Origin: Spirochaetales bacterium
Lineage (GTDB): Bacteria > Spirochaetota > Spirochaetia > Sphaerochaetales > Sphaerochaetaceae
Assembly (NCBI GenBank): GCA_012838895.1
Contig: DUOJ01000025.1
Coordinates: forward strand, 1 to 39,783
Direction: 5' to 3'
DNA length: 39,783 nucleotides
A program made the translations under genes and the position numbers. The notes beneath the pieces were generated by a model. It was not told the DNA's origin. It searched no databases and saw only the letters and a program-made list of their open reading frames with translations. This document shows positions 7,570 to 38,801 of the stretch, piece by piece. How positions within the stretch are numbered: the first letter of the stretch is position 1; every line of letters begins with the position of its first letter.

Positions 7570-7578
7570 ATGCTATGA
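7570..7578 (+). other. Two-codon upstream reading frame overlapping the kinase start
   Basis: AGGAG at 7560-7564 is ideally placed (five bases) for ATG 7570, which reads ATG CTA TGA; the TGA overlaps the kinase ATG at 7575 as TATGA. The kinase start itself is ten bases from the same AGGAG. Start, one codon and stop may tune initiation by reinitiation. Confidence 0.35.
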
Positions 7579-8759
7579 AAGAGAGCCTCTCTTATGTTTT
7601 ACTAACCCCCTATACTGTTGCTAAGAGTCGCACTGGGGGAGTTTTAAGTCGCCTCTTGAGTCAGTCTAACCTCTCCTTGGTAGGGGCTCAGATTATCGCC
7701 TTTGATGAGGGCCTTGCCAAAGCCTATGCAGAGAGTCTCCTCACCCAAACACGCCCTGAATACCCGGCCGCTATGCATCTCCTCGCCTCTTATGTTGAAA
7801 AGAGCGTTGGTCCCAATGGGGGGCGCCCCCATCGCACATTGATGTTGATCTTTAGGGGCGTTGACCCGTGTAAGCAACTGAGTGATATCTGTGGTGCCCT
7901 CTACTCTGAAAACAGGGGGCTTGAGTCGTTTACGGGAGAGACAATTCGTGACACCTATGCCGACTTAATCTACGACAAACAAAACCGCAACCGCATCACC
8001 TACTTTGAACCTGCCATCCTCACCCCCCGGCTTCAAGCCCATGCCGACTCGTTTTTTAAGCTCTTAGCCCCTTGGTTACCGGGACAACCCAATATTGTTG
8101 AAAATATGACCTACCCCCACCCTAATCAGGTTGAACGCACACTGGTGATTATAAAGCCCGACAACTGGCGCTACGCCTCAAGTCGCCCTGGAACAATCCT
8201 CGATATGTTTAGCCGTACCGGACTTAGAATTGTAGGGGTGAAGGTTATGCGCCTCTCGGTGGCCCAAGCGATGGAGTTTTATGGTCCAGTGCGTGAGAGC
8301 CTTAAGGAGAAGTTATCGGGGGTTATTGCAAAGAAGGGGAAAGAGCTCCTTGAAAAGAAGTTCTCCATCACCCTCAGCGAAGAGAGCCTTGAGAGTCTCG
8401 AAAAGGGGTTTGGACAAGAGTATGCAATCGACCAATTTGAGCAGATTGTTGAGTTTATGAGTGGTTCTCGCCCCAGTGCCACCCCGGTTGAAAAACTCGA
8501 TGAGCCGGGAAGTGTGCAGTGTATGATTATCGTCTACGAGGGGGAGAATGCAACATCTAGAATTAGAGATGTGTTGGGTCCGACCGACCCCCACAAGGCC
8601 CCCGAAGGGACAATACGTAGAGAACTAGGCACCGATATTATGGTTAACACCGCCCACGCAAGCGACTCACCCCAGAGTTATCAACGTGAAATCAAAGTTC
8701 TCGCCTTCCACACTAACGGTTGCTCTGAGATTATCAACAGCTATGTTAAGATGCTCTAA
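7575..8759 (+). CDS. Two-domain nucleoside diphosphate kinase-like protein
   Basis: A 394-residue product with two NDK-like halves, where a normal NDK is about 140-150. The second (about 187-380) has ERTLVIIKPD at its start, G-L-R-I-V-G-V-K near 216-223, P-E-G-T-I-R-R-E-L and the active-site N-T-A-H-A-S-D with His361, so it should transfer phosphate between nucleotides. About 60 extra residues (240-315) separate its first helix region from the end. The first (about 5-150) keeps YVLLTPYTV and S-L-V-G-A-Q-I but has FEPAILTP where N-x-x-H-x-S-D should be, so it lacks the phosphate-accepting histidine. Its end overlaps the convergent araD-like gene by four bases. Confidence 0.78.
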   Translation: MKESLSYVLLTPYTVAKSRTGGVLSRLLSQSNLSLVGAQIIAFDEGLAKAYAESLLTQTRPEYPAAMHLLASYVEKSVGPNGGRPHRTLMLIFRGVDPCKQLSDICGALYSENRGLESFTGETIRDTYADLIYDKQNRNRITYFEPAILTPRLQAHADSFFKLLAPWLPGQPNIVENMTYPHPNQVERTLVIIKPDNWRYASSRPGTILDMFSRTGLRIVGVKVMRLSVAQAMEFYGPVRESLKEKLSGVIAKKGKELLEKKFSITLSEESLESLEKGFGQEYAIDQFEQIVEFMSGSRPSATPVEKLDEPGSVQCMIIVYEGENATSRIRDVLGPTDPHKAPEGTIRRELGTDIMVNTAHASDSPQSYQREIKVLAFHTNGCSEIINSYVKML

Positions 8760-10472: not shown

Positions 10473-11684
10473 CTAGAGTCCTAAGTCGGGATTTCCAGCT
10501 CCGTAGTGTTTAAGAATCACAAGTGGATCACTCTTGGAGGGGTTAACAATCCTAACCCCCTCTTTGGCAGCCCCTTCACTGACGAAGAACTCATCGTAGG
10601 TGAGCTGACCAAAGCGGATCAGGGCGGGGGTCTCTACATCCCACACTCCAAACTTACCGTGACCTTGAATCACATACATCCCATAGGCGGCTGCGTCTTT
10701 AATTACAACTTCGGCACCGGGGAAGACGGTCAGCTCTTTAGCACTAAAGGCAGCTGACTTGTAGACAATCCACTGCTCACTATACCCTGCAGCATTCATC
10801 TCAGCTTCAGGTCTCACCGGGCGGGGTGCCATGAAGTGTTTCTCAGCAAAGAGGGGGTCAACGTTGGCTTCCCAATCGATTACATCAAGGAGGTAGTCGA
10901 AGTCACCCACCTTGTCTTTGGGAGTGTTCTTCCATAAGAGTTCCTCTTCAATGATGGCGTCGTTAACTAGAGACTGGTACATCGCAAAGACGTCACTCGC
11001 CATCTGGGGCTCATAGGTACACATACTACCGGGGGCGTGGAGGATTCCGGGAGGGACGTCCCAGCCTGTCCCAACAGTTAGCCTATAAGCTGCCGAGAGG
11101 TCGGTAATCTTGTTGTCCCCTTTGGTAAAGTTCATCAGAGCCTCTTTAACCTGCTCTTTGGTGACTGAGGGCTGAAGACCAAAGAAGGTGTAGGGGAAGT
11201 CGCCACCGTGGTTGTTCAACTGGGGTGGGAAGTAATAGGCCTCAGGCTTACCCATCTCGCCCACATTAGCAGCGTGCTCGTCGCGGTGGTGGATGTGGTG
11301 AGGAAGCGGTCCCTTGTTGTCAAAGAATTTGCTAAACATCGGCCACTTGCCGTAAGTTTTCCACAATCTCTCCCCAATTAGAGCCCCTTTGAGCTCATCA
11401 ACAGCGTCACGTAGGAGGAACTTTTTTGTCTGGCCACCATCTTCCCAGACACAAAAGGAGAGCCCCTCGTTCTCACTAGTGAGAGGTCCGTTATCGGCAG
11501 GGGTGGTTGAACTGAACCACCGCTCATCAATTCCTCCTCGCTCGCCACCAAGGGCGTAGTAATCATCGGGGTGGAGTTTAATGCGACGACCAGGGACACA
11601 GAAGGAGCGGGGCACCCAGTTGGGGGCCAAACGGAAAATCCCCTTCCCCTGCTCAAATGCTAATTGAATCTCTTTCTTACTCAT
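10473..11684 (-). CDS. Class I phosphomannose isomerase-like cupin protein
   Basis: A 403-residue cupin related to type I mannose-6-phosphate isomerase. The metal-site block reads LPHHIHHRDEHA (His130, His132), then KPEAYYF supplies Glu148, equivalent to Q-x-H and the glutamate of PMI. The second block V-P-P-G-I-L-H-A-P-G-S (His216) is equivalent to I-P-A-G-T-x-H-A. A second cupin barrel follows (YGMYVIQGHGKFGVW). The substrate may be a free or phosphorylated aldose; it would serve as the aldose/ketose isomerase of this operon ahead of the L-xylulokinase-like enzyme, but this is inferred. It has a GAGG signal nine bases before ATG 11684. Confidence 0.72.
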   Translation of the reverse strand: MSKKEIQLAFEQGKGIFRLAPNWVPRSFCVPGRRIKLHPDDYYALGGERGGIDERWFSSTTPADNGPLTSENEGLSFCVWEDGGQTKKFLLRDAVDELKGALIGERLWKTYGKWPMFSKFFDNKGPLPHHIHHRDEHAANVGEMGKPEAYYFPPQLNNHGGDFPYTFFGLQPSVTKEQVKEALMNFTKGDNKITDLSAAYRLTVGTGWDVPPGILHAPGSMCTYEPQMASDVFAMYQSLVNDAIIEEELLWKNTPKDKVGDFDYLLDVIDWEANVDPLFAEKHFMAPRPVRPEAEMNAAGYSEQWIVYKSAAFSAKELTVFPGAEVVIKDAAAYGMYVIQGHGKFGVWDVETPALIRFGQLTYDEFFVSEGAAKEGVRIVNPSKSDPLVILKHYGAGNPDLGL

Positions 11685-20544: not shown

Positions 20545-20757
20545 TTATCTGAGGTGCCACCCCTCCCCTTTTGTATACTCCACCACCCCGTTTAGTTCGA
20601 GGTCGATGAGCTGAGGTAAGAGGGTCTCTTCACTGGTTTTAAGGGCTAAGACAAGAGCTTGGGTTGTCAACTTTACCCCTTTGAGAATTTTAATGATTGC
20701 TATAGCTTGTTGGGCCTCTTTTGAACCTAAAGGAAATGAGCTGCTAAAAGATTCCAA
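20545..20757 (-). CDS. Small winged-helix protein resembling the DprA C-terminal domain
   Basis: A 70-residue protein whose residues about 22-70 (ILKGVKLTTQALVLALKTSE, then L-P-Q-L-I-D-L-E-L-N-G-V-V-E-Y and G-W-H-L-R) match the winged-helix fold found at the C-terminus of DprA/Smf DNA-processing proteins. Here it stands alone, with no Rossmann domain nearby. The start is TTG at 20757, the only candidate behind a strong AGGAGG site (20765-20770). A seven-codon frame and a hairpin cover that site. It may bind DNA as a small regulator; function is unknown. It follows the anchored binding-protein gene by 68 bases and could be the fourth gene of that unit. Confidence 0.6.
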   Translation of the reverse strand: MESFSSSFPLGSKEAQQAIAIIKILKGVKLTTQALVLALKTSEETLLPQLIDLELNGVVEYTKGEGWHLR

Positions 20758-20785
20758 TGCCCTACCTCCTAAAGAAGTAGGGCAT
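20758..20785 (-). promoter_or_regulatory. Leader hairpin overlapping the winged-helix gene's ribosome site
   Basis: Eight-base arms TGCCCTAC and GTAGGGCA enclose an 11-base loop that holds most of AGGAGG; the TTG start follows the stem directly. Folding would limit access to the ribosome site. On the plus strand the same hairpin is followed by TTTT, so it could also end rare plus-strand transcripts. Confidence 0.55.
20762..20785 (-). CDS. Possible seven-codon leader peptide
   Basis: ATG CCC TAC TTC TTT AGG AGG TAG encodes MPYFFRR behind its own well-placed AGAGGAG. Its two AGG arginine codons double as the ribosome site of the next gene and its stop lies seven bases before that gene's TTG start. 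Translating ribosomes would open the hairpin and may be needed to express the winged-helix protein. Confidence 0.35.
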   Translation of the reverse strand: MPYFFRR

Positions 20786-20825
20786 TTTCTCCTCTTTTGC
20801 TTGAGGTTTGCCTGATACTAGCCTC

Positions 20826-22145
20826 TCATTGTAGTTGCTCTGCAATCAATTCTTGGAGGTTGAGGACACTTGTGGGGATATCTTGATCTTGGGCAATGAT
20901 TGTGTAGATTTGCTGGGTTATGTAACGGTCAATAATGGGAAACTTTTTAAAATTGGGGTCGATGTAAGAGTTGGCAATGATATCTTCAATAAAGGGGCGC
21001 GAGAGGGGTTTGAGCCCATCTTCCAAGATAACTCCCGAAGTGTAGAGGTCGTCAAAAACTCTCAGGTTGACCGGTAGCATATTGGAGAGGTTCCATATTT
21101 GGTGTTGGAACTGCTCGTCACTCGAGATAAATTGGAGAAATTTATAGGCAACATCTTTGTGGCGAGAACGACTACTCATCCCCATCTGAACGGTAAAGAG
21201 TTTAGATTTACTCTCTCCCTGTGGCCCATGGGGAAATGGGAGGACATCCCAGTCAAACTGGTTAAAGCGGAGCACTTTGTAGGGGTAGGAGCCGTAGACT
21301 CTAAACTCAGAGAGGTTAAATGTCTTAAAGCCCACCCTCCCCGATTCAAAGGCACCCTCCCGGATGACAACCCCACGGTTGAGGGCGTTAATCTTTTTCA
21401 AAAAGATGAGAAGCTCCTCCATCCGCTCTTTGTTAAATCCCGCTTTGAGGTTATCAACATCAAAGAGGGAGGTGTCGTTAGTATAAAATGCGTGGTGCCA
21501 ATCGTAGCCTTCAACTCCAAATCGGTCGGGCAATCCATCACCATCAAGATCGACTGTTATGGCTCTGCATAACTCATAAAACTGCTCCCAAGTCCAGTTA
21601 TCTAGATCAATCTCCAAACCAAAGGAGCGTAAAAGATCGTTATTAACAATCATCATTGAGGGGACAATTCCGATGGGTAAGGAGTATTGAGAGCCTTGGT
21701 ATTGCCCCGCCTCAAGAGCATTGGGGAAGAAGGTGCTCACATCTAACTTCCCTTGCTCGATATATTTGTCGAGGTTGGTGAGGAGGCCGATAGCTGCATA
21801 AGTATTGAAGTCCTCCTCCAAGATGAGGAATAGGTCACTCTCCTTCCCTTTGAGGACCAGTTGGGCAAACCACTCCGAATAATCTTTATACATCGTCCCA
21901 GTGCGTAACTTTACCCTATAACCCTCCTCTTTGTAACGCTCTTCAAACATTTCGACCGCCCGATCGTAGATGATATAGGCGAAGTTTTGAGGTACCCCCC
22001 AACTGTTGCCCGAATAGAGAGAGAGTTCAATTATGATTGTCTTGTTGCGGTAGTTGGTAATATACAAAGCGACTGCCACAATGAGAGCGACAATGAAAAT
22101 TAATAGGATAATTTTTAATGGGCGGTTAATCCTCTTTTTACTCAT
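20826..22145 (-). CDS. Membrane-anchored extracellular solute-binding protein
   Basis: A 439-residue family 1 (MalE-like) solute-binding protein. The basic start and hydrophobic stretch at about 11-30 lack a clear cleavage site or lipobox, so it is probably held in the membrane by an uncleaved segment with the binding domain outside. Visible family features include SLPIGIVPSMMIVNNDLL, NWTWEQFYELC and, at 199-210, D-L-D-G-D-G-L-P-D-x-x-G, which resembles a calcium-binding loop. Its first eight bases overlap the response-regulator gene. No permease partner is adjacent, so I infer a sensory rather than transport role, passing ligand status to the neighbouring histidine kinase. Confidence 0.8.
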   Translation of the reverse strand: MSKKRINRPLKIILLIFIVALIVAVALYITNYRNKTIIIELSLYSGNSWGVPQNFAYIIYDRAVEMFEERYKEEGYRVKLRTGTMYKDYSEWFAQLVLKGKESDLFLILEEDFNTYAAIGLLTNLDKYIEQGKLDVSTFFPNALEAGQYQGSQYSLPIGIVPSMMIVNNDLLRSFGLEIDLDNWTWEQFYELCRAITVDLDGDGLPDRFGVEGYDWHHAFYTNDTSLFDVDNLKAGFNKERMEELLIFLKKINALNRGVVIREGAFESGRVGFKTFNLSEFRVYGSYPYKVLRFNQFDWDVLPFPHGPQGESKSKLFTVQMGMSSRSRHKDVAYKFLQFISSDEQFQHQIWNLSNMLPVNLRVFDDLYTSGVILEDGLKPLSRPFIEDIIANSYIDPNFKKFPIIDRYITQQIYTIIAQDQDIPTSVLNLQELIAEQLQ

Positions 22146-22821
22146 TTAAGCTATCCAAATCCTTTAACATCAATCCCGACTGAAGGGCAAAAATAGCAAT
22201 CTGTGTGCGGTCTCTTAAATCTAACTTTTTGAGGATATTGCTGATATAGTTGCGAATGGTCCCCTCGGAAAAGTAGACCTCTTGCATAATCTCTTTATTC
22301 GAATATCCCCTGCCTATCAGCTGTATAATTTTAAGCTCTTGGAGAGAGAACTGCTTAAACCCATCGTCGTAATCTTGGATTGTTTTGAAAGAGGAGCTCG
22401 CCAAACGCCCCAATAGGGAGAAGATTTTTTGGGCAGTTTGAGGATCAACCGAGGTCCCTCCTTGGTGGACCGTAACTATAGAGGAGAGGAGGTCGTGCTT
22501 GGAAATCCCTTTGAGGAGGAAGCCATCAGCTCCGTACTTGATAGCATCGTAGACATATTCATCGTCGTCAAAGGTGGTTAAAATTATAATTTTAATTGCA
22601 TCATTTTCCCCCTTGATTAAGTGAACACATTCAAGCCCATTAATTTCGGGCATCCTGATATCGAGCAGGACCACATCAGGGCGATATTTTTTAGCCATCT
22701 CTACCGCTTCACGCCCATCTTTGGCCATAGCCACCACTTCAAAGCGCTCATCACTACTAACTATTAATCTCAAACTGTCGCGGATTAACTCCTGATCGTC
22801 GGCTATTAAAATTCTAATCAT
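22138..22821 (-). CDS. Response regulator, NarL/FixJ type
   Basis: A 227-residue two-component regulator. The receiver domain (1-120) has the acidic pair ADDQ, phospho-acceptor Asp54 in V-L-L-D-I-R-M-P, and the threonine and lysine switch residues in IIILTTFDDD and FLLKGI. The LuxR-type helix-turn-helix follows near 160-215 (LIGRGYSNKEIM, then YFSEGTIRNYISNILKKLDLRDRTQ). It overlaps the kinase gene by eight bases and the binding-protein gene by eight, so the three are made together. The inverted repeat at 24203-24229 upstream of the divergent ABC operon is a reasonable target. Confidence 0.92.
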   Translation of the reverse strand: MIRILIADDQELIRDSLRLIVSSDERFEVVAMAKDGREAVEMAKKYRPDVVLLDIRMPEINGLECVHLIKGENDAIKIIILTTFDDDEYVYDAIKYGADGFLLKGISKHDLLSSIVTVHQGGTSVDPQTAQKIFSLLGRLASSSFKTIQDYDDGFKQFSLQELKIIQLIGRGYSNKEIMQEVYFSEGTIRNYISNILKKLDLRDRTQIAIFALQSGLMLKDLDSLNE

Positions 22822-24121
22822 CCTGTGTAACCCCTTTACGAATCGGAATAGTTGCTATCGTGTTAAAACCCTCCCCAGGGGCACTGACAAAAATTACCTT
22901 TCCTCCGAGAAAGGCGATCCGCTCTTCTATATGTTCTAGTCCGAAATGTTTAACTACTGTTTGACACCCTACCCCATCGTCGGCAATTGTCACGCGTAAC
23001 TGGCTTTCACTATAGGTTAGAGTGATGTTGATATTTTCACTTTGGGAGTGGCGGAAAGAGTTGGTTAAACTCTCCTGAACGATGCGGTAGACAGTTTGTT
23101 CTTCATCATCATCTAAGGGGACATCGTTGCCAATAATAATAAAATTGATGTTTTGGTTTCCGATGGCATTGGCATCATTAATTAGGTCGTTAAGGGCATT
23201 GAGCAGAGAGGAGCGCTCAATAGCATCACTTTTCAACTCCCGCACCGAACGTCTAATGTCGGTGAGGCCACGATTGGCAACTTGTTTAATCTTCTCTAGG
23301 CGCGTGTAGAGTTCTTTTCCCCGCCCCTTGGCCAGCTCAAGAGAGGCTTCAAGACCAGTTGAAATCGAGGTGAGGGAGTGACCCAAGATATCATGAATCT
23401 CGTGGGCCAAGCGGTTGCGCTCTTTAAGGCGGGCACTCTTCTCCAACTCCCCCTGTAGAATCTCCAGCTGGTAGAGTTTATCGGAGAGTTCGTTATTTAG
23501 TCTGATAAACTCTTTATTCTCCCGCACTTTGCTTTGGATCAAGAACTGGAAGAAAAGGATTACCAGAATAAAGTTTAGCGACTCCAATGTACTCTTAATA
23601 CTGTAGAGGGGAATTTGGAAGTTTGAGCCATAAAACGAGATATAATCTTGAAGCGCTACCAAGTTGAGTCTAACCGAGATAATATCGTAGTCACTGAAGA
23701 TGTAGCTCACCATTACCAAAGCAATGGTAAGGTACCGTAGGGGACCGTTACTTATGAAAAGGAAGGCCCCCAGCCCTAAAAAGAGGAAAAGCCCCTTATA
23801 CGAGAAGTTTAGGTTGTAGGCAATGAAGAAAGAGAGCAAGATGTCGGCTACAATGAGGATGAAGGAGAGTCCATCTTGCTTCCCATTGAGTTTACGCTTC
23901 ACTATCCCTGAGATAATTAACAAGAGAAATCCGGTCAAAGTGTAGAATGGGACGTGCCATGGCACATGAGGAAGATAGCGGGCTTGCTCTAAGAAGTTCC
24001 ACGCTTGGTCAGCCTCACAAATCAGGTAAGTTGTTTGGAAGATAACTATCGAGAGGAACGCGACAATTATGAGGTTGAGGAGCAAAATAGTGTTATAAAC
24101 AAACCCCAGAGATTTTTCCAT
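22814..24121 (-). CDS. Sensor histidine kinase, HisKA_3 type with six membrane segments
   Basis: A 435-residue kinase. The N-terminal part (about 8-195) has some six hydrophobic segments with a short extracytoplasmic loop near 35-55; no separate sensory domain is seen, which fits sensing through a partner such as the anchored binding protein. A coiled helix (about 200-235) leads to R-L-A-H-E-I-H-D-I-L-G-H-S-L with phospho-acceptor His243. The ATPase domain ends in D-D-G-V-G-C and G-E-G-F-N-T-I-A-T-I-P-I. There is no Shine-Dalgarno sequence, and a TATCAT lies seven bases before the ATG. Confidence 0.9.
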   Translation of the reverse strand: MEKSLGFVYNTILLLNLIIVAFLSIVIFQTTYLICEADQAWNFLEQARYLPHVPWHVPFYTLTGFLLLIISGIVKRKLNGKQDGLSFILIVADILLSFFIAYNLNFSYKGLFLFLGLGAFLFISNGPLRYLTIALVMVSYIFSDYDIISVRLNLVALQDYISFYGSNFQIPLYSIKSTLESLNFILVILFFQFLIQSKVRENKEFIRLNNELSDKLYQLEILQGELEKSARLKERNRLAHEIHDILGHSLTSISTGLEASLELAKGRGKELYTRLEKIKQVANRGLTDIRRSVRELKSDAIERSSLLNALNDLINDANAIGNQNINFIIIGNDVPLDDDEEQTVYRIVQESLTNSFRHSQSENINITLTYSESQLRVTIADDGVGCQTVVKHFGLEHIEERIAFLGGKVIFVSAPGEGFNTIATIPIRKGVTQDD

Positions 24122-24134: not shown

Positions 24135-24202
24135 CCCTATCTCATAGAATCTTACTTTGTAAAGCTTAATTTTCTTTATTACTGTTAGTAAATAGAATTG
24201 AA

Positions 24203-24229
24203 TGACATTTGTCACAAAAGTGATGACAA
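24203..24229. promoter_or_regulatory. Inverted repeats upstream of the second ABC operon
   Basis: TGACA-TT-TGTCA (24203-24214) overlaps TTGTCA (24209-24214) paired with TGACAA (24224-24229). The cluster ends nine bases before the -35, a position suited to an activator such as the adjacent response regulator. Confidence 0.45.
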
Positions 24230-24237
24230 TAAACTGT

Positions 24238-24266
24238 TTGCACCCACTCTCAAACTCTCCTACAAT
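24238..24266 (+). promoter_or_regulatory. Promoter of the second sugar ABC operon
   Basis: TTGCAC (24238-24243), a 17-base spacer and TACAAT (24261-24266). The poor -35 and good -10 are typical of an activated promoter. The leader then forms an 8-base-pair hairpin at 24277-24299. Confidence 0.55.
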
Positions 24267-24276
24267 CAGTGGTGAG

Positions 24277-24299
24277 GATGGCTATGGTACCTAGCCGTC
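24277..24299 (+). promoter_or_regulatory. Leader hairpin of the second ABC operon
   Basis: Arms GATGGCTA and TAGCCGTC (one G-U pair) with a seven-base loop, right at the predicted 5' end of the transcript; likely an mRNA-stabilising stem. Confidence 0.4.
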
Positions 24300-24326
24300 T
24301 ATTCAACAACAAGAAATGGAGGAATC

Positions 24327-25262
24327 ATGAAAAAAACTTTAGTAGTTTTACTGATTTTAGTTGTGTCTCTCGGCGCAGTTTTTGCCCAAGGGCGTTCAGA
24401 AGCTAAGAGCGGTTATACTTTCGGCTACACCTGTATGACGATGAATAACCCCTTCTTTATCATCCTCGAGAAATCAATCCGTGACTCAGTAGAAGCCAAT
24501 GGCGATAAGCTGATTACAATGGATCCGGCAATGGATGTTGCCAAGCAGATTAACCAAATCGAAGACCTGATTACCCAGGGAATCGACGCCATCTTCCTCA
24601 ACCCAGTTGACTGGGAAGGGATTAGACCTGCTCTGGTAGCCCTCAAAAATGCCAATATTCCTATCATCAACTTCGACACCGAAGTTAAAGATATGGAGTA
24701 TGTTACCGCTTATGCCGGTTCTGACAACAAGAACGCCGGTTACGTTTGTGGGTTAGACCTCGTAAGCCGCTTCCCCAATGGTGGAAGAATTGTCGTTCTC
24801 GACTCTCCTCTGATGAACTCAGTTAACGACCGTATTGAGGGATTCATGCGGGCCATTGATGGGAAAGGATTCACCATCCTCGCTCAACAAGATGCAAAAG
24901 GGGACCTCCCAACCGCTATGAGAATTACCGAAGATATCTTACAAGCTCACCCCCAAATTGATGCAATCATGGGTGGAAATGATCCCACAGCATTGGGAGC
25001 ATTAGCTGCTTGTAAAGCTGCCAACCGTACTAACGTCTTAATCTACGGTGTTGACGGTTCACCCGAAGCCAAAGCTGAAATTGCCAGTGGCTCTCAGTTT
25101 GTTGGTTCCGGTGCCCAGAGCCCCATCAGCATTGGTGTTGAGTCAGTTAAACTGGCTTATAAAGTGCTCAATAACGAGCCTTATGAAGAGAGAATTCCTG
25201 TACAAACTTTCTTAATCAACGGCGACAACGTTAACGAGTACGGCACAGATGGCTGGCAATAA
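24327..25262 (+). CDS. Ribose-type periplasmic sugar-binding protein (second system)
   Basis: A 311-residue RbsB-like protein. The signal peptide (MKKTLVVLL core, cleavage after A-V-F-A) lacks a lipobox; the mature end begins Q-G-R-S-E-A-K-S. Ligand-fold strands include NPFFIILEKSIRD, DAIFLNPVDWEG, INFDTEV and MGGNDPTALGALA, with YGVDGSPEAK. ATG 24327 follows GGAGGA. It is the first gene of a binding protein, ATPase and permease operon, with a terminator-like hairpin after its stop that should keep it more abundant than the membrane parts. Confidence 0.93.
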   Translation: MKKTLVVLLILVVSLGAVFAQGRSEAKSGYTFGYTCMTMNNPFFIILEKSIRDSVEANGDKLITMDPAMDVAKQINQIEDLITQGIDAIFLNPVDWEGIRPALVALKNANIPIINFDTEVKDMEYVTAYAGSDNKNAGYVCGLDLVSRFPNGGRIVVLDSPLMNSVNDRIEGFMRAIDGKGFTILAQQDAKGDLPTAMRITEDILQAHPQIDAIMGGNDPTALGALAACKAANRTNVLIYGVDGSPEAKAEIASGSQFVGSGAQSPISIGVESVKLAYKVLNNEPYEERIPVQTFLINGDNVNEYGTDGWQ

Positions 25263-25335: not shown

Positions 25336-26838
25336 GTGAGCGAAAATATTTTATTAAAGATGAACCACATCCGCAAAGAGTTCCCCGGTGTTTTGGCCTT
25401 GAAGGATGTCTCTTTTGAGCTGAAAGCCGGAGAGGTACATGCTCTATTGGGTGAAAATGGGGCAGGAAAATCGACCCTGATTAAAATATTAGGGGGAATC
25501 TACTCCAGTGATGCGGGAGAGATTGTGATTAACGGTCAAGTGGCTACTATTGACAAGGTTCAAGATGCCCAGACCCATGGAATCAGTGTGATTCACCAAG
25601 AATTGGTACTGGTTCCCCATATGACGGTTGCAGAAAATATCTACTTGGGCAGAGAACCGACTAAAAGAGGGAGCCGTTTTGTGGACTTCAAGAAGATGAA
25701 CCGCGATGCCAAAGAGATTCTCGATCCGTTTAATCTCGATTTCAAACCCACCGATTTAGTTAGTAATCTCACTATTGCGCAGCAACAGATGGTGGAAATT
25801 ATTAAAGCCCTCTCTTTTAATGCCCGTATATTGGTGATGGATGAACCCACCTCTTCTTTATCGGAAAAGGATGTTGATTTCCTCTTCGACAATATACGCA
25901 AACTTAAAAAGGCCAATGTTGGAATTATCTATATCTCTCACCGGATGAGCGAGCTGATGCAAATAGCCGACCGAATTACAGTAATTCGTGACGGAGAATA
26001 TATTGGAACACGTAGCTCCAATGAGACAAACAACGATGAGTTAATTGCAATGATGGTTGGACGCCAGCTTACCAACTATTATACACGCACCTTTGGTAAC
26101 CCTCAGGAGAAAGTATTAGAGGTGAAAAATCTCAACGCGGGCTCCTTCTTGAAAGATATTTCATTCCACCTCAACAGTGGTGAAATTCTCGGTTTTGCCG
26201 GGTTAGTGGGGGCCGGAAGAAGTGAGTTAATGAAGTGTATCTTTGGAATAGATCCAATCACCAGTGGTGAAATTTATGTAGAAAACGAGATGGTCACCAT
26301 AAAGAACCCCTTAGAGGCGACAAAATTGGGCATCGCCTTAGTTCCCGAGAGTCGAAAAAGTGAAGCTCTCTTTCCAGAGCAGAGTGTGCAATATAATATC
26401 ACCATCAAGTCACTTGATGAATTTATTAAGGGGATTAGAGTTAATCACTCCAAAGAGGGGGCCATCACCCGTGAGTATGTGGAGAAGATGGATGTGCGCA
26501 CCCCTAGTTTCAACCAATTGGTGGGCAAACTCTCGGGAGGAAACCAACAAAAAGTTGTTGTCGGGCGCTGGCTAGCTACTAAGCCCAAAATTTTAATTTT
26601 TGACGAACCCACCCGTGGTGTTGATGTTGGCGCTAAAGCTGAAATCTACTCAATCATGAATGATTTAGTTAAAGAGGGGGTCGCCATAATCATGATCTCT
26701 TCGGAGTTACCCGAGGTGATTAATATGAGTGACCGAGTGGTTGTGATGAGTAATGGGAGAATCACTGGATGCTTGCCTCGTGAAGATCTGACGCAAGAGA
26801 AGATAATGCACTATGCAACACAATTTGTATTTACCTAA
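25336..26838 (+). CDS. Ribose-type sugar ABC transporter ATPase (second system)
   Basis: A 500-residue double ATPase. First half: Walker A GENGAGKST, signature region N-L-T-I-A-Q-Q-Q-M-V-E-I, Walker B ILVMDEPTSSL. Second half: degenerate GLVGAGRSE, LSGGNQQKVVVGRW and I-L-I-F-D-E-P-T-R-G-V-D. Translation starts at a GTG with GGAGG upstream; the site can pair weakly with CCTC just before the start. It energises the permease that follows 26 bases later. Confidence 0.94.
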   Translation: MSENILLKMNHIRKEFPGVLALKDVSFELKAGEVHALLGENGAGKSTLIKILGGIYSSDAGEIVINGQVATIDKVQDAQTHGISVIHQELVLVPHMTVAENIYLGREPTKRGSRFVDFKKMNRDAKEILDPFNLDFKPTDLVSNLTIAQQQMVEIIKALSFNARILVMDEPTSSLSEKDVDFLFDNIRKLKKANVGIIYISHRMSELMQIADRITVIRDGEYIGTRSSNETNNDELIAMMVGRQLTNYYTRTFGNPQEKVLEVKNLNAGSFLKDISFHLNSGEILGFAGLVGAGRSELMKCIFGIDPITSGEIYVENEMVTIKNPLEATKLGIALVPESRKSEALFPEQSVQYNITIKSLDEFIKGIRVNHSKEGAITREYVEKMDVRTPSFNQLVGKLSGGNQQKVVVGRWLATKPKILIFDEPTRGVDVGAKAEIYSIMNDLVKEGVAIIMISSELPEVINMSDRVVVMSNGRITGCLPREDLTQEKIMHYATQFVFT

Positions 26839-26864: not shown

Positions 26865-27869
26865 ATGAATGTAGCCAAAAGTAAAACTGAGAAATCGAAG
26901 GTAGTCACCTTCTTAACCCACAATCCACTCTTCAATTTTGGGAAAGAAAACTTGGGTATCCTGATAGGACTTCTGCTCTTATCGTTAATCTTAACGATTT
27001 TCTCACCCGTATTTCTCTCCAAACACAATATCTTGAATGTGTTGCGCCAAGTAGCCACCAACCTCTACATTGCCTGTGCAATGACAATGGTGATTATCTT
27101 GGGAGGAATTGACCTCTCGGTGGGTTCAACTATTGCCATGTCGGGAGTTGTCACCGGAGGCTTGATTGCCTTTGATGGCCAATCAATTGTTGTGGCTGTA
27201 CTGGCAGGCCTTTTTGTAGGATTAGTGGTGGGTGCTTTCAACGGATTTTTAATATCAAGGACCACTATCCCCCCTTTCATAGTGACCCTCTCAACGATGA
27301 ATATTATGCGAGGAGCTAGTTACGTCTACACGGGGGGACAACCCATTAGAGTTATGAGCGATTCGTTCAACTTTATTGGAGCTGGTTACGTGAGAGGCAT
27401 CCCTGTACCGATTATCTACCTGGTGATTATTGTGATTATATCAGTCCTCATAATGTCTAAGTCAAAGCTGGGGCGTCACATCTACGCTGTAGGCGGTAAC
27501 CCGGTAGCGGCTCGCTTCTCGGGTATTAAAAACAACCGAGTCCTTTTCTTCGCCTATCTCTTCTCAGGGCTCATGGCAGCAGTTGCCGGAATCGTCTTAG
27601 CTTCGCGGATGTTCAGTGGTCAGCCCACTGCCGGACAGGGAGCTGAGATGGATGCCATCGCTGCTGTTGTTCTGGGGGGAACCAGCATGAGTGGCGGTGT
27701 AGGAAAGATTGGGGGGACCGTCATTGGGGCTCTGATTATTGGAATCCTTAGTAATGGCCTTAACCTTCTGGGTATAAGCTCCTTCTGGCAATACATTGTA
27801 AAGGGAATTGTTATCTTAATAGCTGTCTATGTCGACTTCCTAAAGAAGCGAAAAGAGGGGACAAATTAA
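26865..27869 (+). CDS. Ribose-type sugar ABC transporter permease (second system)
   Basis: A 334-residue permease of the RbsC family. After a charged cytoplasmic start of about 35 residues it has repeated hydrophobic segments and the family motifs TMVIILGGIDLSVGS, GAFNGFLI, YAVGGNPVAARFSGI and A-A-V-V-L-G-G-T-S-M-S-G-G. GAGGAG lies nine bases before ATG 26865. It is the last gene of the operon and is followed by a good terminator. Confidence 0.93.
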   Translation: MNVAKSKTEKSKVVTFLTHNPLFNFGKENLGILIGLLLLSLILTIFSPVFLSKHNILNVLRQVATNLYIACAMTMVIILGGIDLSVGSTIAMSGVVTGGLIAFDGQSIVVAVLAGLFVGLVVGAFNGFLISRTTIPPFIVTLSTMNIMRGASYVYTGGQPIRVMSDSFNFIGAGYVRGIPVPIIYLVIIVIISVLIMSKSKLGRHIYAVGGNPVAARFSGIKNNRVLFFAYLFSGLMAAVAGIVLASRMFSGQPTAGQGAEMDAIAAVVLGGTSMSGGVGKIGGTVIGALIIGILSNGLNLLGISSFWQYIVKGIVILIAVYVDFLKKRKEGTN

Positions 27870-31383: not shown

Positions 31384-33447
31384 CTAGAAATCGAGTTCAC
31401 TCCTCCTAATTATGTGGTCTTGGTAAGCTTTATCGAGCTCAACGAAGTAACCACTCCACCCCCACACCCTTACAATCAGGTTGCGGTACTTGTCGGGGTG
31501 CTTCTGGGCATCCAACATCATCTCTCGATTGACCCCGTTGAGTTGCATCTGCATCCCCCCTAGGTCCATGTAGCTCTTCACCAAGCGCGCCACCTTAGCC
31601 GTGCTCTCAGCGTTCCTAAACATCGAATCGTCAAGTTCGATTGTGAGGGGGCCACCGTTGGCGACTCGCTCCAAGTTTCCTTTGCTAAACGATTTGATGA
31701 GAGAGATGGGCCCTTTGAGGTGAGTATGAAGGGATGGGGAGAAGTTACAAGCAAACTCTTCCCCCTGGTGACGCCCGTCAGGCGAGGCTCCCAACTCATT
31801 ACCGTGCCACAGGTAGTACATAGCTGAACCGGTCCCCGCTCTAAAGATCCCCCCGCGGTCGTTAGATACCCCTTCAAGGGAGTCGGCAAACCAATCGAGG
31901 AGCTCGCCAGCTAAGGCGTCGACATAATCATCATCATTACCCATTTTAGGGGCTTCAAAACGCAAGAGGTGGTAGAGTTCGTCATACCCCACAAAGTCGG
32001 CTTCAAGGGCCTTGAGGAGGGTCTCTTTATCAACCCGCTGCTCCTCAAAAACATACTTTTTAATGGCTGCTAGCGAGTCGGTAGCACTCGAGAGGCCGGT
32101 GCCATGAATTCCGTAGTTGTTGTAGCGCGCACCTAGGCTAATATCTTGCCCCTTGGCGATACACCCCTCCATCATGAGCGACATAAGGGGAGTTGGCTCC
32201 ATATAGACGCCGTTGGTGTTGGAACAAATCTCGGCGGTTTGACGGCAGAGTTTACTTTTTACAACCTCTTTAAATTTATCAAAAGTTTCACACTCAGTGA
32301 GGCAGGGGAGAGCCTCTAAGACAGCCTTCAAAAAGGAGAGAGCATCGATATTTACAATATCCATCGCCACTTCAGGGATAATAAACTCCCAACAAGCCGC
32401 CACAACGTAGTTTAAAGCATCCTCTTCACGGTAGCCCCACTTCTTAAGGGCGTTTACAACCACTTCGTCATTGGAGTATTGGGGGAAGCCAAGCCCCTGC
32501 TTGGTCATCTCAGAACCCAACTCCAACACTTCGATGGGGGTGCCAGCGTGAACTCGAAGGTTAATCTTAGGGTCAATCAGTTTGAGTTCAAGGGAGGCCT
32601 CCATACAGAGTTTTGAGAGGTCGTTGAAAGCATCTTCACCGCTAGTAGTAAGTCCCCCTAACATGAGGGACTGGCCGTTATCACCCTGCTGCATCCCCGG
32701 GTAGAGGTCGCTATCTTTGTTGAACGAGATGAAGAACTCTTGGAGAAGCTCAAGGGCACTCTCTCTGGTGAGCACCCCTTTAGCTAAGTCCGCCTCATAG
32801 TAGGGGAACATAAATTGGTCAAAGCGCCCAATTGTGTTGTGGTAGTTGAAACTGGCCCACAGCCCAAAGTGAATGAGGCGGAAGAATTGGAGAGCTTGAA
32901 CAAAGTTTTGGGGTCGGTTTTGGGGAATTTGGGCAAAGCTCTCCGCCACAGTGGTATTACCCACCTCAATGGCTGCCAAACGGTAGCGTTCAGCAAACGC
33001 CTCCATAATATCAAGGGTCTCAAGGAGTATATTGAGGTAGGCAATCTTCTCAGCGTCTCTGTGGGTTTTTAGAGACTCTTCAATCTCAAGGCGAACTTGG
33101 TTAAATCCCTTATCGATTAAGGAGGAGTAGCTGGGGCAGATGTTACTAACTTTACCCTGCTCATGAATCCTATAGGATCGCTTTATAACCGACCACTCCC
33201 GCTCTGTGTAGATTTCGGGAATCGTAGGAACCGTCCTTAGAAGGGCAATCTTCTCGTTGGGGAAAACAACAACCTTCTCCTTCTCCAAAACCCATTTAAG
33301 GCGTTCTACTGCCCGCTCTGTGTCGCTTAATTCCCGCTTCTCAAACTCTTTGGCTAAAGAGTGGGGGTTAACTGAACTTTGCCGGTAGGTGTGGTGTTCC
33401 TTATTCTCAACATAAAATTGTCTCAATTTAGCGATATAACTGGTCAT
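31384..33447 (-). CDS. Glycyl radical enzyme of unknown substrate (PFL-like fold)
   Basis: A 687-residue member of the pyruvate formate-lyase superfamily, about 100-150 shorter than the well-known eliminases. Landmarks: I-G-R-F-D-Q-F-M-F-P at 207-216, the active-site cysteine Cys352 in A-A-C-W-E-F with Glu354 two residues on, G-A-S-P-D-G-R-H-Q-G-E near 553-563, GGMQMQLN at 630-637, and the C-terminal glycyl loop R-V-W-G-W-S with Gly663. The C-x-E pair resembles that of dehydratase-type enzymes rather than the C-C of pyruvate formate-lyase. The loop W-G-W-S replaces the usual x-G-Y-S. Its activase lies immediately upstream. In this sugar operon it may dehydrate a diol or sugar derivative; substrate unknown. 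Confidence 0.88.
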   Translation of the reverse strand: MTSYIAKLRQFYVENKEHHTYRQSSVNPHSLAKEFEKRELSDTERAVERLKWVLEKEKVVVFPNEKIALLRTVPTIPEIYTEREWSVIKRSYRIHEQGKVSNICPSYSSLIDKGFNQVRLEIEESLKTHRDAEKIAYLNILLETLDIMEAFAERYRLAAIEVGNTTVAESFAQIPQNRPQNFVQALQFFRLIHFGLWASFNYHNTIGRFDQFMFPYYEADLAKGVLTRESALELLQEFFISFNKDSDLYPGMQQGDNGQSLMLGGLTTSGEDAFNDLSKLCMEASLELKLIDPKINLRVHAGTPIEVLELGSEMTKQGLGFPQYSNDEVVVNALKKWGYREEDALNYVVAACWEFIIPEVAMDIVNIDALSFLKAVLEALPCLTECETFDKFKEVVKSKLCRQTAEICSNTNGVYMEPTPLMSLMMEGCIAKGQDISLGARYNNYGIHGTGLSSATDSLAAIKKYVFEEQRVDKETLLKALEADFVGYDELYHLLRFEAPKMGNDDDYVDALAGELLDWFADSLEGVSNDRGGIFRAGTGSAMYYLWHGNELGASPDGRHQGEEFACNFSPSLHTHLKGPISLIKSFSKGNLERVANGGPLTIELDDSMFRNAESTAKVARLVKSYMDLGGMQMQLNGVNREMMLDAQKHPDKYRNLIVRVWGWSGYFVELDKAYQDHIIRRSELDF

Positions 33448-33456
33448 ACTCTCCCC

Positions 33457-34311
33457 TTACAATATGGAGGCCTCAATCCCCCGCTTGGTAAATTCTTCTA
33501 AGTTAAAATAGGGCTTGGCATCTTCATCGAAGTCCACCAGATAATGGCGCCCTACCATCCCATATTTCGCCCCTGCTGTCCTCTGGTAGGGGAGCAGTTC
33601 AACCTTCTCCAAGTTTAAGCTCCCCTCGAGCAGCTTAGCTGTCTCACGGTAGTTCTCGTCGTTGTCGTTAACCCCGGGAATAACCGGAATACGGATAACA
33701 AACGGCTTACCGCTACCCTTGAGGTACTTTAGGTTCTCTAAAATGGGGCGGTTATCTTCCCCACAATAGTAGCGATGTTTCTCACTATCGACCATCTTAA
33801 GGTCCATCAAAACATAATCGAGGTGCTCAACAACCTCTTTAAACTTCGCTTTAGAGGCAAATCCCGACGTCTCAACGGCACAGTGGAGCCCCTCAAGGTG
33901 TTTTATCGTCGCCAGGAGGAAACTGCTCTGAAGCAGAGGCTCTCCTCCCGAAAAAGTGACCCCGCCCCCATTTTTCTCTAAGATGGGGCGATGTTTCAAT
34001 AAAAAGGTGGCTAACTCTTGGGGGGTGTAGCTCTCCCCCACCAAACGTCTCAAATTTAGGGGACAGACACTAATACACTCCCCACGAGTAGTGCAGAGGG
34101 AGTGTACTGCCCCCGTGGGGCAAGCGGCGACACAAGCGCCACACTTGATACACTGGGCGTATTTCACCATCAATTCAACTTTAGGTGAAATCCCCTCAGG
34201 ATTGTGGCACCACTGACACCGCAAAGGACACCCCTTGAGGAAGACGGTGGTGCGAATCCCCGGACCATCGAAGATGGCCATCTCCTTGATATCAAAAACA
34301 AGGCCCGTCAT
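33457..34311 (-). CDS. Glycyl radical enzyme activating protein (radical SAM)
   Basis: A 284-residue activase that should abstract hydrogen from Gly663 of the downstream enzyme. The radical SAM motif is C-P-L-R-C-Q-W-C (Cys28, 32, 35) followed by HNPEG; G-G-V-T-F-S-G-G-E-P binds SAM. A ferredoxin-like insert near 50-85 has a full first cluster motif (Cys54, 57, 60, 64) but the second, C-T-T-R-G-E-C-I-S-V-C-P (Cys73, 79, 83), has Arg76 where a cysteine normally sits. It starts two bases after the ABC ATPase gene and ends nine bases before the enzyme gene, confirming co-expression. Confidence 0.93.
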   Translation of the reverse strand: MTGLVFDIKEMAIFDGPGIRTTVFLKGCPLRCQWCHNPEGISPKVELMVKYAQCIKCGACVAACPTGAVHSLCTTRGECISVCPLNLRRLVGESYTPQELATFLLKHRPILEKNGGGVTFSGGEPLLQSSFLLATIKHLEGLHCAVETSGFASKAKFKEVVEHLDYVLMDLKMVDSEKHRYYCGEDNRPILENLKYLKGSGKPFVIRIPVIPGVNDNDENYRETAKLLEGSLNLEKVELLPYQRTAGAKYGMVGRHYLVDFDEDAKPYFNLEEFTKRGIEASIL

Positions 34312-34313
34312 AA

Positions 34314-35825
34314 CTAGAGGGTGTGAGAGAGGATCTTCTCTTGGATGAACTCCCTCTTGTCGGTCAGTTCAGCCGCGATTGCCCCCCGCTTCATCACATA
34401 GATACGATCACTCATCCCAATAATTTCGGGGAGTTCTGAACTTATCATAAGAATTGCTACCCCTTGCGAGGCGAGCTGGTCGATAATCTTATAGATCTCA
34501 CTCTTGGCATTGACATCGATACCCCTAGTTGGCTCATCTAAAATGAGGAGCTTAGGATTGGTGAGAAGCCACTTGGCTACGACCACTTTCTGTTGGTTAC
34601 CCCCACTTAAAGTATTACAGATTTGCTCAACTGAGTTGGCAACAATGTTAAGTTTATCGATACTCTCTTGGGCTACCACCTCTTCCCTCTTAAAGTCAAT
34701 CTTAGTTTTGGGATACATCCGCTTAAGGGAGGCCATGGTGATATTGTCTTTGAGAGACATATCTAACACTAGCCCTTCAAGCTTACGATCTTCAGAGAGG
34801 TAGATAACCCCCTTCTCAATCAGATTGCTGGGGTGGAGCCCCCCTATCTCTTCTCCCATATAGAGGATCTCCCCTCCATAGTAGGTGCGACTCCCAAAGA
34901 TCGATTTACCCAGTTCGGTACGCCCGGCACCAACGAGGCCACTGAGACCTACCACTTCACCACTACGTACATAGAGGTTGATGGGCTCGGTATTGCGCGA
35001 GATGCGGAGCCCTTTCACCTCAAGGACCACCTCATCTTGAACTTGGTGGCTACTTTGGAACATTGCCCCAAGCTTACGCCCCACCATCATACTTATAATC
35101 TTGTCGTAATCAAAATCTTCAATGTCAACGGTGCCAATATAGCGCCCATCACGCAAGACGGTGATACGGTCTCCAATCTCCTTCAGCTCTTCAAAGCGGT
35201 GGGAGATATAGATGATACTGATTCCATTGCGCCTTAGGTCGTGGATGATGGCAAAGAGTTTATCAATCTCACTCTTAGTTAAACTGGCTGTGGGCTCATC
35301 CATAATAATAATTCTACAGTCGTAGGAGAGGACTTTAACAATCTCAACTATCTGTTGTTGAGCCGTTGAGAGGTCTCGCACCATAGTTTTGGGGTCGATA
35401 TCGAAGCCGAGGCGTAACAACATCTCACGCGCCTCTGTGTACATCGAAGCTTTATCGATGAAGAGCTTTTTTTGACGCTCGCGTCCCAAAAAGATATTTT
35501 GGGCAACATCTAGGTTTAAGCAGAGGTTGAGCTCTTGGTGGATAAACCCAATCCCGTGGGCTAGCGACTCGCGGGGCCCTGCGAAGGTGATTACCTCTCC
35601 GTCGAGGAGCATCTCCCCCTCATCTGCCGGGATAATCCCCCCAATGATTTTCATCAGTGTCGATTTCCCTGCCCCATTTTCCCCCACCAAGACGTGCACT
35701 TCAGCCTCTTTGACATCGAAGTGGACATCTTCGAGAATCTTAACAGTAGTACCGCGGAGGGGCTGACCATGCTCATCAAAGATAAATTTAGTAATCGCAT
35801 TCATCTCAAGGATTGTTTTCTTCAT
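34314..35825 (-). CDS. Ribose-type sugar ABC transporter ATPase (third system)
   Basis: A 503-residue double ATPase. First half: Walker A GENGAGKST, signature region D-L-S-T-A-Q-Q-Q-I-V-E-I, Walker B RIIIMDEPTASL. Second half: GLVGAGRTE, LSGGNQQKVVVAKW and LLILDEPTRGID. It sits between the permeases and the glycyl radical activase gene, tying transport to the catabolic enzymes. An insertion of about 10 residues near the start (EHGQPLRGTTVKILEDV) is longer than in the other two ATPases here. Confidence 0.93.
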   Translation of the reverse strand: MKKTILEMNAITKFIFDEHGQPLRGTTVKILEDVHFDVKEAEVHVLVGENGAGKSTLMKIIGGIIPADEGEMLLDGEVITFAGPRESLAHGIGFIHQELNLCLNLDVAQNIFLGRERQKKLFIDKASMYTEAREMLLRLGFDIDPKTMVRDLSTAQQQIVEIVKVLSYDCRIIIMDEPTASLTKSEIDKLFAIIHDLRRNGISIIYISHRFEELKEIGDRITVLRDGRYIGTVDIEDFDYDKIISMMVGRKLGAMFQSSHQVQDEVVLEVKGLRISRNTEPINLYVRSGEVVGLSGLVGAGRTELGKSIFGSRTYYGGEILYMGEEIGGLHPSNLIEKGVIYLSEDRKLEGLVLDMSLKDNITMASLKRMYPKTKIDFKREEVVAQESIDKLNIVANSVEQICNTLSGGNQQKVVVAKWLLTNPKLLILDEPTRGIDVNAKSEIYKIIDQLASQGVAILMISSELPEIIGMSDRIYVMKRGAIAAELTDKREFIQEKILSHTL

Positions 35826-35835
35826 CTCATCCCCC

Positions 35836-36801
35836 CTACAGTCGCCTATTTTTAACGTTTTCGAAGATGATGGCGAGTAAAATAACGATCCCCTGGAACG
35901 CCTGGTAGGTGTAGTAGGAGACGTTTAAGAGGTTGATACAGTTCTCTAGCACCTTAATGGTTAAGACACCAAAGACACTCCCAATAACCGTACCAATCCC
36001 CCCAAAGAGGCTCGCCCCACCAATAATGGCTCCGGTTATCACCTCGAAGGTGTAGACTCCGCCCCCCATGGTGGGTTGGGCGCAGTTGACCCGAATAGTG
36101 AGTAAAATAGCGGCAATAGCAACTAAGAAGGAGCAGATCATGTAGACTGAAATATTGAGTCGCTCGGTCTTAATACCACTCATCCTCGCCGCCTTAGCGT
36201 TGAAACCAAAAGCTGAGAGCGAACGCCCAAAGGTGCTGTGGTGGAGGAGGTAGTACATCACTACGCAAATAATGAGGGAGATTAAAACCGTCGTATTGAG
36301 TCCGAAGATGTTGGTCACCCCAATTGCCCTAAAGTTGGCGGGAAGGCGGTTGATATCGCTACCGCTACTCACAATTTGGGCAATTCCGAAGATGATATAA
36401 CCAGTCCCTAAAGTGACAATAAAGGCGGGAACTTTAACCACCTGCACCAATATCCCATTGATAAATCCCACTAAAAGCCCCACCAAGAGGGTTATGAAAA
36501 TTGAGAGCCAAATCGGTAGTCCAACCCCCTTTACAAGGAGCCCCACAGTAATTGAGCAGAGCCCTAAGGTGTAGCCTAAAGAGAGGTCAATACCGCCTGT
36601 CATCAAGACAAGGGTGATTCCCAAACAGGCAATAATTGGGATTGCAGCTTGCTTTATAATTGTGAGAAAGTTGTTAAGTGCAAAAAAGTTCTTTACAAAA
36701 ATCGAGGCTATAATAGCGAGTATCAGGAAGATAACGACACTCCCGTTTCTCTTAACAAATCGCCTCACCTTTTCTGAAAATAGTAGTTGAGTAGTGCTCA
36801 T
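35836..36801 (-). CDS. Ribose-type sugar ABC permease (third system, second subunit)
   Basis: A 321-residue RbsC-family permease with repeated hydrophobic segments and the motif LVLMTGGIDLSLG, G-F-I-N-G-I-L-V, AFGFNAKAARMSGI and G-A-I-I-G-G-A-S-L-F-G-G. It differs clearly from the neighbouring permease at 36811, from which it is nine bases away, so the pair probably forms a heterodimer. Together with the ATPase and binding protein it makes the third importer. Confidence 0.92.
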   Translation of the reverse strand: MSTTQLLFSEKVRRFVKRNGSVVIFLILAIIASIFVKNFFALNNFLTIIKQAAIPIIACLGITLVLMTGGIDLSLGYTLGLCSITVGLLVKGVGLPIWLSIFITLLVGLLVGFINGILVQVVKVPAFIVTLGTGYIIFGIAQIVSSGSDINRLPANFRAIGVTNIFGLNTTVLISLIICVVMYYLLHHSTFGRSLSAFGFNAKAARMSGIKTERLNISVYMICSFLVAIAAILLTIRVNCAQPTMGGGVYTFEVITGAIIGGASLFGGIGTVIGSVFGVLTIKVLENCINLLNVSYYTYQAFQGIVILLAIIFENVKNRRL

Positions 36802-36810
36802 CCCTAACCC

Positions 36811-37767: not shown

Positions 37768-37787
37768 TGGCTTCCCACTCCAGTTAT

Positions 37788-37809
37788 AGTGGGGGCAAAC
37801 GCCCCCACT
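37788..37809 (-). terminator. Intercistronic hairpin after the third binding-protein gene
   Basis: Perfect nine-base-pair stem (AGTGGGGGC/GCCCCCACT) with a four-base loop, no T-run. It likely stabilises the upstream binding-protein message or limits read-through to the permeases. Confidence 0.65.
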
Positions 37810-37824
37810 TAGTGACAAGATTCT

Positions 37825-38751: not shown

Positions 38752-38789
38752 CTTTTCTCCTCCTCCCCGTTCATTGGGGTTCGTTTTAT

Positions 38790-38801
38790 CCACAAATGTG
38801 G
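38790..38801. promoter_or_regulatory. Possible operator in the leader of the third binding-protein gene
   Basis: Inverted repeat CCACA-AA-TGTGG about 40 bases before ATG 38751. A -10-like TATAGT reads on the minus strand at 38819-38824, so the repeat would lie in the early leader, suited to a repressor such as the LacI protein at 30323-31342. Confidence 0.4.

Follow-up and report, generated by a model that had tools for sequence, protein, structure and literature searches.

A probable LevQRS-type sugar-sensing cassette divergent from a ribose-type ABC importer in a spirochaete of the family Sphaerochaetaceae

Results

Here, we analysed a three-gene cassette on a 39,783-nucleotide stretch of DNA from a Spirochaetales bacterium (family Sphaerochaetaceae; contig DUOJ01000025.1 of assembly GCA_012838895.1, positions 1 to 39,783), referred to below as the window. 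The genes are named after their proposed counterparts in LevQRST, a sugar-sensing system of Streptococcus mutans, the tooth-decay streptococcus. Transcribed from the minus strand, from 24121 to 20826, the cassette encodes a sensor histidine kinase, a response regulator and a MalE-like binding protein (its gene called levQ below), in that order (Table 1); the open reading frames overlap, as stated in an initial annotation made from the DNA letters, and do so by 8 bp at each of the two junctions. Past levQ, the hairpin at 20786-20756, the strongest of 7 terminator-like hairpins in the region (5.2 expected), is a predicted terminator that would mark the end of the three-gene operon. On the other side of the cassette and divergently from it run rbsB, rbsA and rbsC, which by their Pfam domains encode an ATP-binding cassette (ABC) importer of the ribose (CUT2) type; its binding protein is of another class than that of the cassette, in agreement with the initial annotation.

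Table 1. Genes and predicted elements of the cassette and the divergent importer operon in the window
Feature	Position	Strand	Details
LevS-type sensor histidine kinase	22814..24121	-	435 aa; Pfam HisKA_3 + HATPase_c
LevR-type NarL/LuxR response regulator	22138..22821	-	227 aa; Pfam Response_reg + GerE
LevQ-type MalE-like binding protein	20826..22145	-	439 aa; Pfam SBP_bac_1 3.3e-21
Terminator-like hairpin past the binding-protein gene	20756..20786	-	14 pairs, 3-nt loop, T-rich tail
Predicted operator TGACATTTGTCA-N9-TGACA	24203..24228	+	palindrome 24203-24214 plus third half-site
Predicted rbsB promoter	24237..24266	+	-35 TTTGCA 24237-24242, 18-nt spacer, -10 TACAAT 24261-24266
RbsB-like periplasmic binding protein of importer	24327..25262	+	Pfam Peripla_BP_4; cleavable-type signal peptide
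RbsA-like ABC ATPase	25336..26838	+	Pfam ABC_tran, 2 stretches
RbsC-like permease	26865..27869	+	Pfam BPD_transp_2

No extracytoplasmic sensor domain was found in the kinase with Pfam or NCBIfam models, as the initial annotation had suspected; the six membrane segments that it had counted are present as helices in the AlphaFold model (pLDDT 85.2) and are reduced to five by hydropathy. Over the 64 kinases scored in this way, there were 5 segments in 44, 6 in 12 and 4 in 8. Alignments of the kinase family display two conserved outer stretches, both short, which read TT..IC..D.AR.FL and Y(I)xxY, and the top Foldseek match of the model is DesK, with the likeness residing in the cytosolic half. The regulator is of the LuxR type, as had been proposed, and its recognition-helix residues G187, R190, N191 and S194 are identical in all 72 aligned regulators. 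The assignment of the third product as a membrane-anchored, MalE-like protein also stands: the SBP_bac_1 protein begins with a helix at residues 8-33 (model, mean pLDDT 90.5), and a lipobox was not found in its N-terminus. In the family at large, an uncleaved transmembrane anchor is the usual state, replaced by a lipobox cysteine at four loci (L046, L095, L105 and L121), so that anchoring to the membrane is, as far as sequence predicts, kept by two routes.

The cassette is conserved as a unit. Among 139 genomes of the same family, the binding protein has strong matches (>200 bits) in 15, the source genome included, and the order kinase-regulator-binding protein is retained in 13 of the 14 strong relatives, the contig of the fourteenth starting within levQ. 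In Group A relatives, which have 65-72% identity in the binding protein, the cassette diverges from rbsBAC in every contig long enough to show both; in Group B relatives (~30% identity), it is in line with rbsBAC, and an additional RbsB-like gene directly precedes the kinase gene in 4 of 5, the contig of the fifth (L048) stopping there. A binding-protein alignment run against 84,980 species genomes recovered 306 relatives, the best 80 of which, from Spirochaetota and Bacillota, make up the 80 loci counted below. Of these loci, selected by the binding protein, 76 have the kinase gene upstream and 77 the regulator gene, which is the co-occurrence that the initial annotation had proposed to look for; misses include L057, L092 and L094, cut by contig ends, and L077, where the regulator is split. 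Near-copies among the 80 (e.g., L125/L129 and L084/L100/L101/L106/L111) mean that these counts are not independent events. The family is patchy, being present in 12 of 392 Spirochaetota genomes and, in the class to which Holdemanella biformis belongs, in 22 of 395, and the binding protein and the kinase are co-inherited over the two phyla. Two loci from Epulonipiscium-type bins have arrangements of their own: levQ comes after the rbsBAC set in L073:1-6360, and in L077:2500-8308 the regulator is in two pieces, with an rbsB gene between it and levQ.

Permeases of the binding protein's own class (CUT1) do not accompany it. MalF- or MalG-like genes were found beside levQ at none of the 80 loci with models each derived from five loci (173-425 bits on leave-one-out scoring), whereas weak matches to the binding protein (~60 bits), taken as a control, have both genes adjacent in 7 of the 7 loci with room; control locus L030, which ends just past the binding-protein gene, is not among the 7. 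Homologues with permeases of their own, which the initial annotation had regarded as evidence against its proposal, thus occur at the weak-match loci and not in the cassette family. Among 12 own-family loci, one (L043) has a weak MalF match (28 bits) ~9 kb off. The source genome has 27 matches to PF00528, the MalF/G-type permease family, none of them on the contig of the window, in line with the annotated absence of a permease nearby.

What adjoins the cassette varies widely. In the 80 loci, the neighbour is a mannose-family phosphotransferase system (PTS) EIIABCD in 29, a CUT2 importer downstream in 18 and divergent in 8, a fructose PTS (FruA, mostly with FruK) in 6, a GH32 fructanase in 4 and something else in 9, with no room in the remaining 6; in seven Bacilli regions examined, a mannose-family PTS follows just downstream in six. 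PTS transporters work without a binding protein and, therefore, the binding proteins of PTS-linked cassettes can only be sensors. Because a fructose PTS, FruK and GH32 recur at the cassettes of relatives, the sensed sugar is probably fructose or a related ketose or hexose. A weaker hint comes from some Group A loci, where a PfkB kinase gene and a mannitol-1-phosphate-dehydrogenase-like gene adjoin levQ.

In an alignment of nine Group A intergenic regions between the kinase gene and rbsB, the sole conserved block is TGACA-N2-TGTCA-N9-TGACA, its half-sites invariant in 9/9 and the remainder diverged. The window holds one exact match to the palindrome where 0.14 matches would be expected with up to 3 mismatches. 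The exact full site has a single copy in the 1.73-Mb source assembly and likewise in the genomes of five relatives, of which two are single-contig; in all 6/6 genomes it lies beside the cassette. Further afield, 73 of the 80 loci were scored (L051-L057, from the same contigs as Group A members, were left out): 29 have the exact palindrome no more than 465 bp past levQ, compared with 3 for the second best of 1024 half-sites in the same geometry, at a rate of 0.98 per kb against 0.013 elsewhere, and with one mismatch allowed, 56 of the 73 have a site at an expected promoter. In Bacillota, the palindrome occurs beside the same regulator irrespective of the type of transporter that follows. At L064:1859-1912, adjoining TGACA palindromes recur with a 21-bp period, a spacing suggestive of several regulator dimers aligned along the same DNA face.

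The initial annotation had pointed to an inverted repeat by a weak -35, and such a repeat does lie there: the palindrome of the window, TGACATTTGTCA at 24203-24214, sits just upstream of TTTGCA-18-TACAAT and, unlike the promoter scan, which by itself was not above chance (10 found vs 8.3 expected), exceeds random expectation. A longer inverted repeat in the same region (24183-24196 / 24298-24311, 100 nt apart, 79%) is not conserved and was set aside in favour of the TGACA palindrome. The palindrome starts 58 nt before the -10 in 7 of the 9 Group A loci, and in the other 2 the -10 is unclear; if transcription is assumed to start 7 nt past the -10, the palindrome of the window spans approximately -70 to -59. 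With a conserved, genome-unique predicted operator at its promoter, the divergent CUT2 operon is probably the target of the cassette.

The S. mutans operon reads levT-levS-levR-levQ and is followed by levDEFG; LevQ and LevT are described as ABC-type sugar-binding proteins, anchored by a transmembrane segment outside the membrane and acting only as sensors, and LevS as a protein with at most 5 transmembrane segments and little exposed (PMC3043104), its kinase type being assigned to class HPK7 (PMC3353171). By gene order, LevT therefore corresponds to an RbsB-like protein and LevQ to the MalE-like protein. Residue comparisons point the same way, softly: at least 3 of the 4 residues of the LevQ fingerprint (published residues, class Bacilli relatives) occur in 5 of 29 binding-protein records, two of which are the same gene (L149/L157), vs 2 of 290 displaced registers, and at least 2 of the 3 LevT residues occur in 5 of 7 RbsB-like records, with crossed assignments giving mostly 0-1 and in one case 2. 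Some of these 29 and 7 records come from overlapping loci of one genome. Searches of plasmids for a Lev cassette found none, the matches being ordinary binding proteins or kinases with 20-34% identity.

An RbsB-like (Peripla_BP_4) gene, the counterpart of levT, stands immediately before the kinase gene in 50 of the 80 loci; many of the products begin with an uncleaved-looking transmembrane segment, and most Bacillota cassettes have this fourth gene preceding the kinase. Of 75 loci used for a closer tally, 65 have complete flanks (64 from the tally itself, L077 added from inspection of the locus), and in these a dedicated RbsB-like gene lies upstream in 45, after levQ in 5 and nowhere at the cassette in 15. 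The last set comprises 8 loci with divergent and 6 with in-line importers that have an RbsB of their own, plus L077 with its RbsB between regulator and binding protein, such that an RbsB-family gene is present at the cassette in 65/65. The window belongs to the LevT-less kind: neither open reading frames nor family assignments reveal a dedicated levT gene in its cassette. When four Group A genomes were searched for a hidden LevT with the LevT-like protein of L046, the top match was the importer RbsB (246-253 bits), followed by matches of at most 105 bits, and the RbsB of the window is the only close LevT-family protein in its genome. A quickly built tree of 90 proteins of the RbsB family, whose branches are long and whose root is uncertain, unites cassette-linked importer RbsBs with LevTs in one clade that excludes the other RbsBs of the window (SH-aLRT 97), and 50 of 52 upstream LevTs fall into one subclade (support 98) placed among importer RbsBs, which suggests that LevT derived from an importer RbsB. 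At what we take to be the ribose-pocket positions of Escherichia coli RbsB, importer RbsB and LevT are alike in both kept and changed residues.

Several features elsewhere in the window merit mention. At 7575-8759 (+), a 394-residue protein, either an unusual fusion or a product of a mis-chosen start, matches nucleoside-diphosphate kinase models over residues ~254-376, with no NCBIfam model matching the first 250. A 403-residue protein encoded within a pentose operon (10473-11684, -) has no Pfam or NCBIfam match. A third CUT2-type operon (34314-38793, -) includes adjacent genes for two different RbsC-like permeases (35836-36801 and 36811-37818) and adjoins genes for a glycyl-radical enzyme and its activase (31384-34311); the enzyme (31384-33447, -) has 687 residues, the matched models 744-901 positions, and it scores below all their cut-offs.

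Discussion

Our analysis indicates, with good confidence, that the cassette encodes a LevQRST-type sensor of extracytoplasmic sugar, made up of three components and without a levT gene, which would activate the divergent rbsBAC operon. This reading builds on properties that were computed, namely the gene set and its conservation, the absence of CUT1 permeases, the anchoring of the binding protein, and the conservation, uniqueness and position of the operator. The sugar-sensing role favoured by the initial annotation gains support from the co-occurrence of the genes, from the absence of own-class permeases and from the LevQRST precedent (PMC3043104); two points escaped that annotation: a four-component system of which the cassette is a variant, usually with a second, RbsB-like sensor, has been described, and the divergent CUT2 operon is probably the target of the cassette as well as its neighbour.

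In the proposed mechanism, an external sugar would bind the anchored binding protein (the LevQ role), the importer RbsB, or both. The binding protein, by analogy with LevQ, would pass the ligand information to the kinase (the LevS role), altering its state by way of the transmembrane helices and the pair of short loops outside; phosphorylation of the NarL-type regulator (the LevR role) by the kinase would follow, and the regulator in this form would bind the TGACA operator and activate rbsBAC.

Several observations weigh against this reading or limit its reach. The direction of signalling, phosphotransfer, activation and the ligand are suggested by the protein families and by LevQRST, and the identification with LevQRST itself rests on gene order, families, topology, targets and the soft residue fingerprint. 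A levT gene is missing from the cassette of the window and from those of the other Group A genomes tested, and the neighbour is a divergent CUT2 ABC importer in place of the levDEFG PTS or a fructanase. At one locus of the 80 (L073), the binding-protein gene has no detected kinase or regulator gene upstream despite room, and an exact palindrome is absent from the 465-bp stretch that follows levQ in 44 of the 73 loci scored. Finally, the solved structures closest to the binding protein are oligosaccharide binders, which offer no pointer to a monosaccharide.

Three alternative explanations were considered. First, the kinase might sense something else, such as the state of the membrane or another solute, with the binding protein tuning it or riding along. 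The DesK-like cytosolic half, the kinase's own membrane domain and the finding that loss of levT in S. mutans merely modulates, lowering target expression (PMC3043104), are compatible with this possibility, which we nevertheless consider improbable: in the same work, loss of levQ abolishes target expression and point changes in LevQ shift sugar specificity (PMC3043104), and binding protein and kinase are inherited together across two phyla. Second, the TGACA operator might belong to another regulator, for instance, a local repressor. Its assignment to the cassette regulator comes from sequence, and the window also has genes for LacI-family regulators; against this stand the confinement of the full site to a single place per genome, beside the cassette, in all six genomes, the recurrence of the palindrome with the same regulator in Bacillota whatever transporter follows, and the invariance of the recognition helix, and the chances of this explanation appear slim. 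Third, the notion that the MalE-like protein is an orphan transport protein that works with a CUT1 permease from another locus and adjoins the kinase gene by chance has in its favour the SBP_bac_1 family, nearest folds that are transport binding proteins and the 27 PF00528 matches on other contigs of the source genome, and is rejected as very improbable given that in 80 loci the family keeps company with kinase and regulator and never with MalF/G, that it also stands before PTS operons, which use no binding protein, and that it usually has an uncleaved anchor or, in some members, a lipobox.

Returning to the LevQRST-type sensor, its LevT-less form raises the possibility, tentative at this point, that the importer RbsB acts as a second sensor, feeding the permease and reporting its occupancy to LevQ-LevS, and that the LevT of Bacillota is a duplicated, anchored descendant kept when a PTS replaced the importer. 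We consider this because an RbsB-family gene is present at 65/65 complete-flank loci, 14 of the 15 LevT-less ones have an importer RbsB adjacent, importer RbsBs and LevTs share a clade in the tree, and both share the same pocket substitutions. A narrower proposition, that the absence of LevT is confined to diderm hosts whose RbsB is soluble, was not adopted, as the importer RbsBs of Pelosinus bear a lipobox. Whether LevQ alone is enough or a second sensor takes part was not settled by the work on S. mutans (PMC3043104), and the natural LevT-less variants, in which a transport binding protein might double as a sensor, pose this question anew. More generally, the findings extend a little-studied streptococcal sensor type to a second phylum, show one sensing module linked with no fewer than three unrelated kinds of sugar uptake (ABC, mannose-type PTS and fructose PTS), and provide a concrete predicted operator with which the regulon can be searched.

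Among other known systems, XylFII-LytS likewise employs a separate anchored sugar-binding protein that signals to a kinase; it differs in the XylF class of the binding protein, the outer domain of the LytS kinase and the YesN regulator. Matches in the RbsB-family comparisons include PDB 2x7x, which we take to be BT1754, a fructose-sensing hybrid two-component protein that presumably links an RbsB-fold sensor to fructan use, with the sensor domain, unlike here, fused to the kinase in one protein. A literature search on kinases with two binding proteins turned up CuaD alone. The CuaDSR system of Ruminiclostridium cellulolyticum resembles the cassette in having an anchored family-1 binding protein as a sensor beside a kinase and a regulator and in controlling a sugar ABC importer, and differs in that CuaS has 2 transmembrane segments, a large outer domain and HAMP, CuaR is of the AraC/YesN type and CuaD is a lipoprotein (PMC10384115); none of these kinase and regulator features is present in the cassette of the window.

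The closest likeness is to LevQRST, for which the published description names six Bacillota species with similar operons and does not contain the string 'spiroch' (PMC3043104). Like that system, the window has a multi-segment HisKA_3/HPK7 kinase without an outer sensor domain, a NarL-type regulator, and an anchored, MalE-like binding protein encoded last, directly after the regulator (the S-R-Q order), with no permease of its class; the host, a diderm spirochaete, is different. In S. mutans, LevR binds the fruA and levD promoters, with fructose and mannose as inducers (PMC3043104), and fruA requires a dyad at -72 to -59, probably the site targeted by LevR (PMC9241797); the predicted dyad of the window, at about -70 to -59, agrees with it in position only, and with the start assumed. 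Because LevT and a PTS target were both tested for and not found, we do not count the cassette as a full member of LevQRST and class it as a LevQRS-type variant, with an ABC importer as its probable target.

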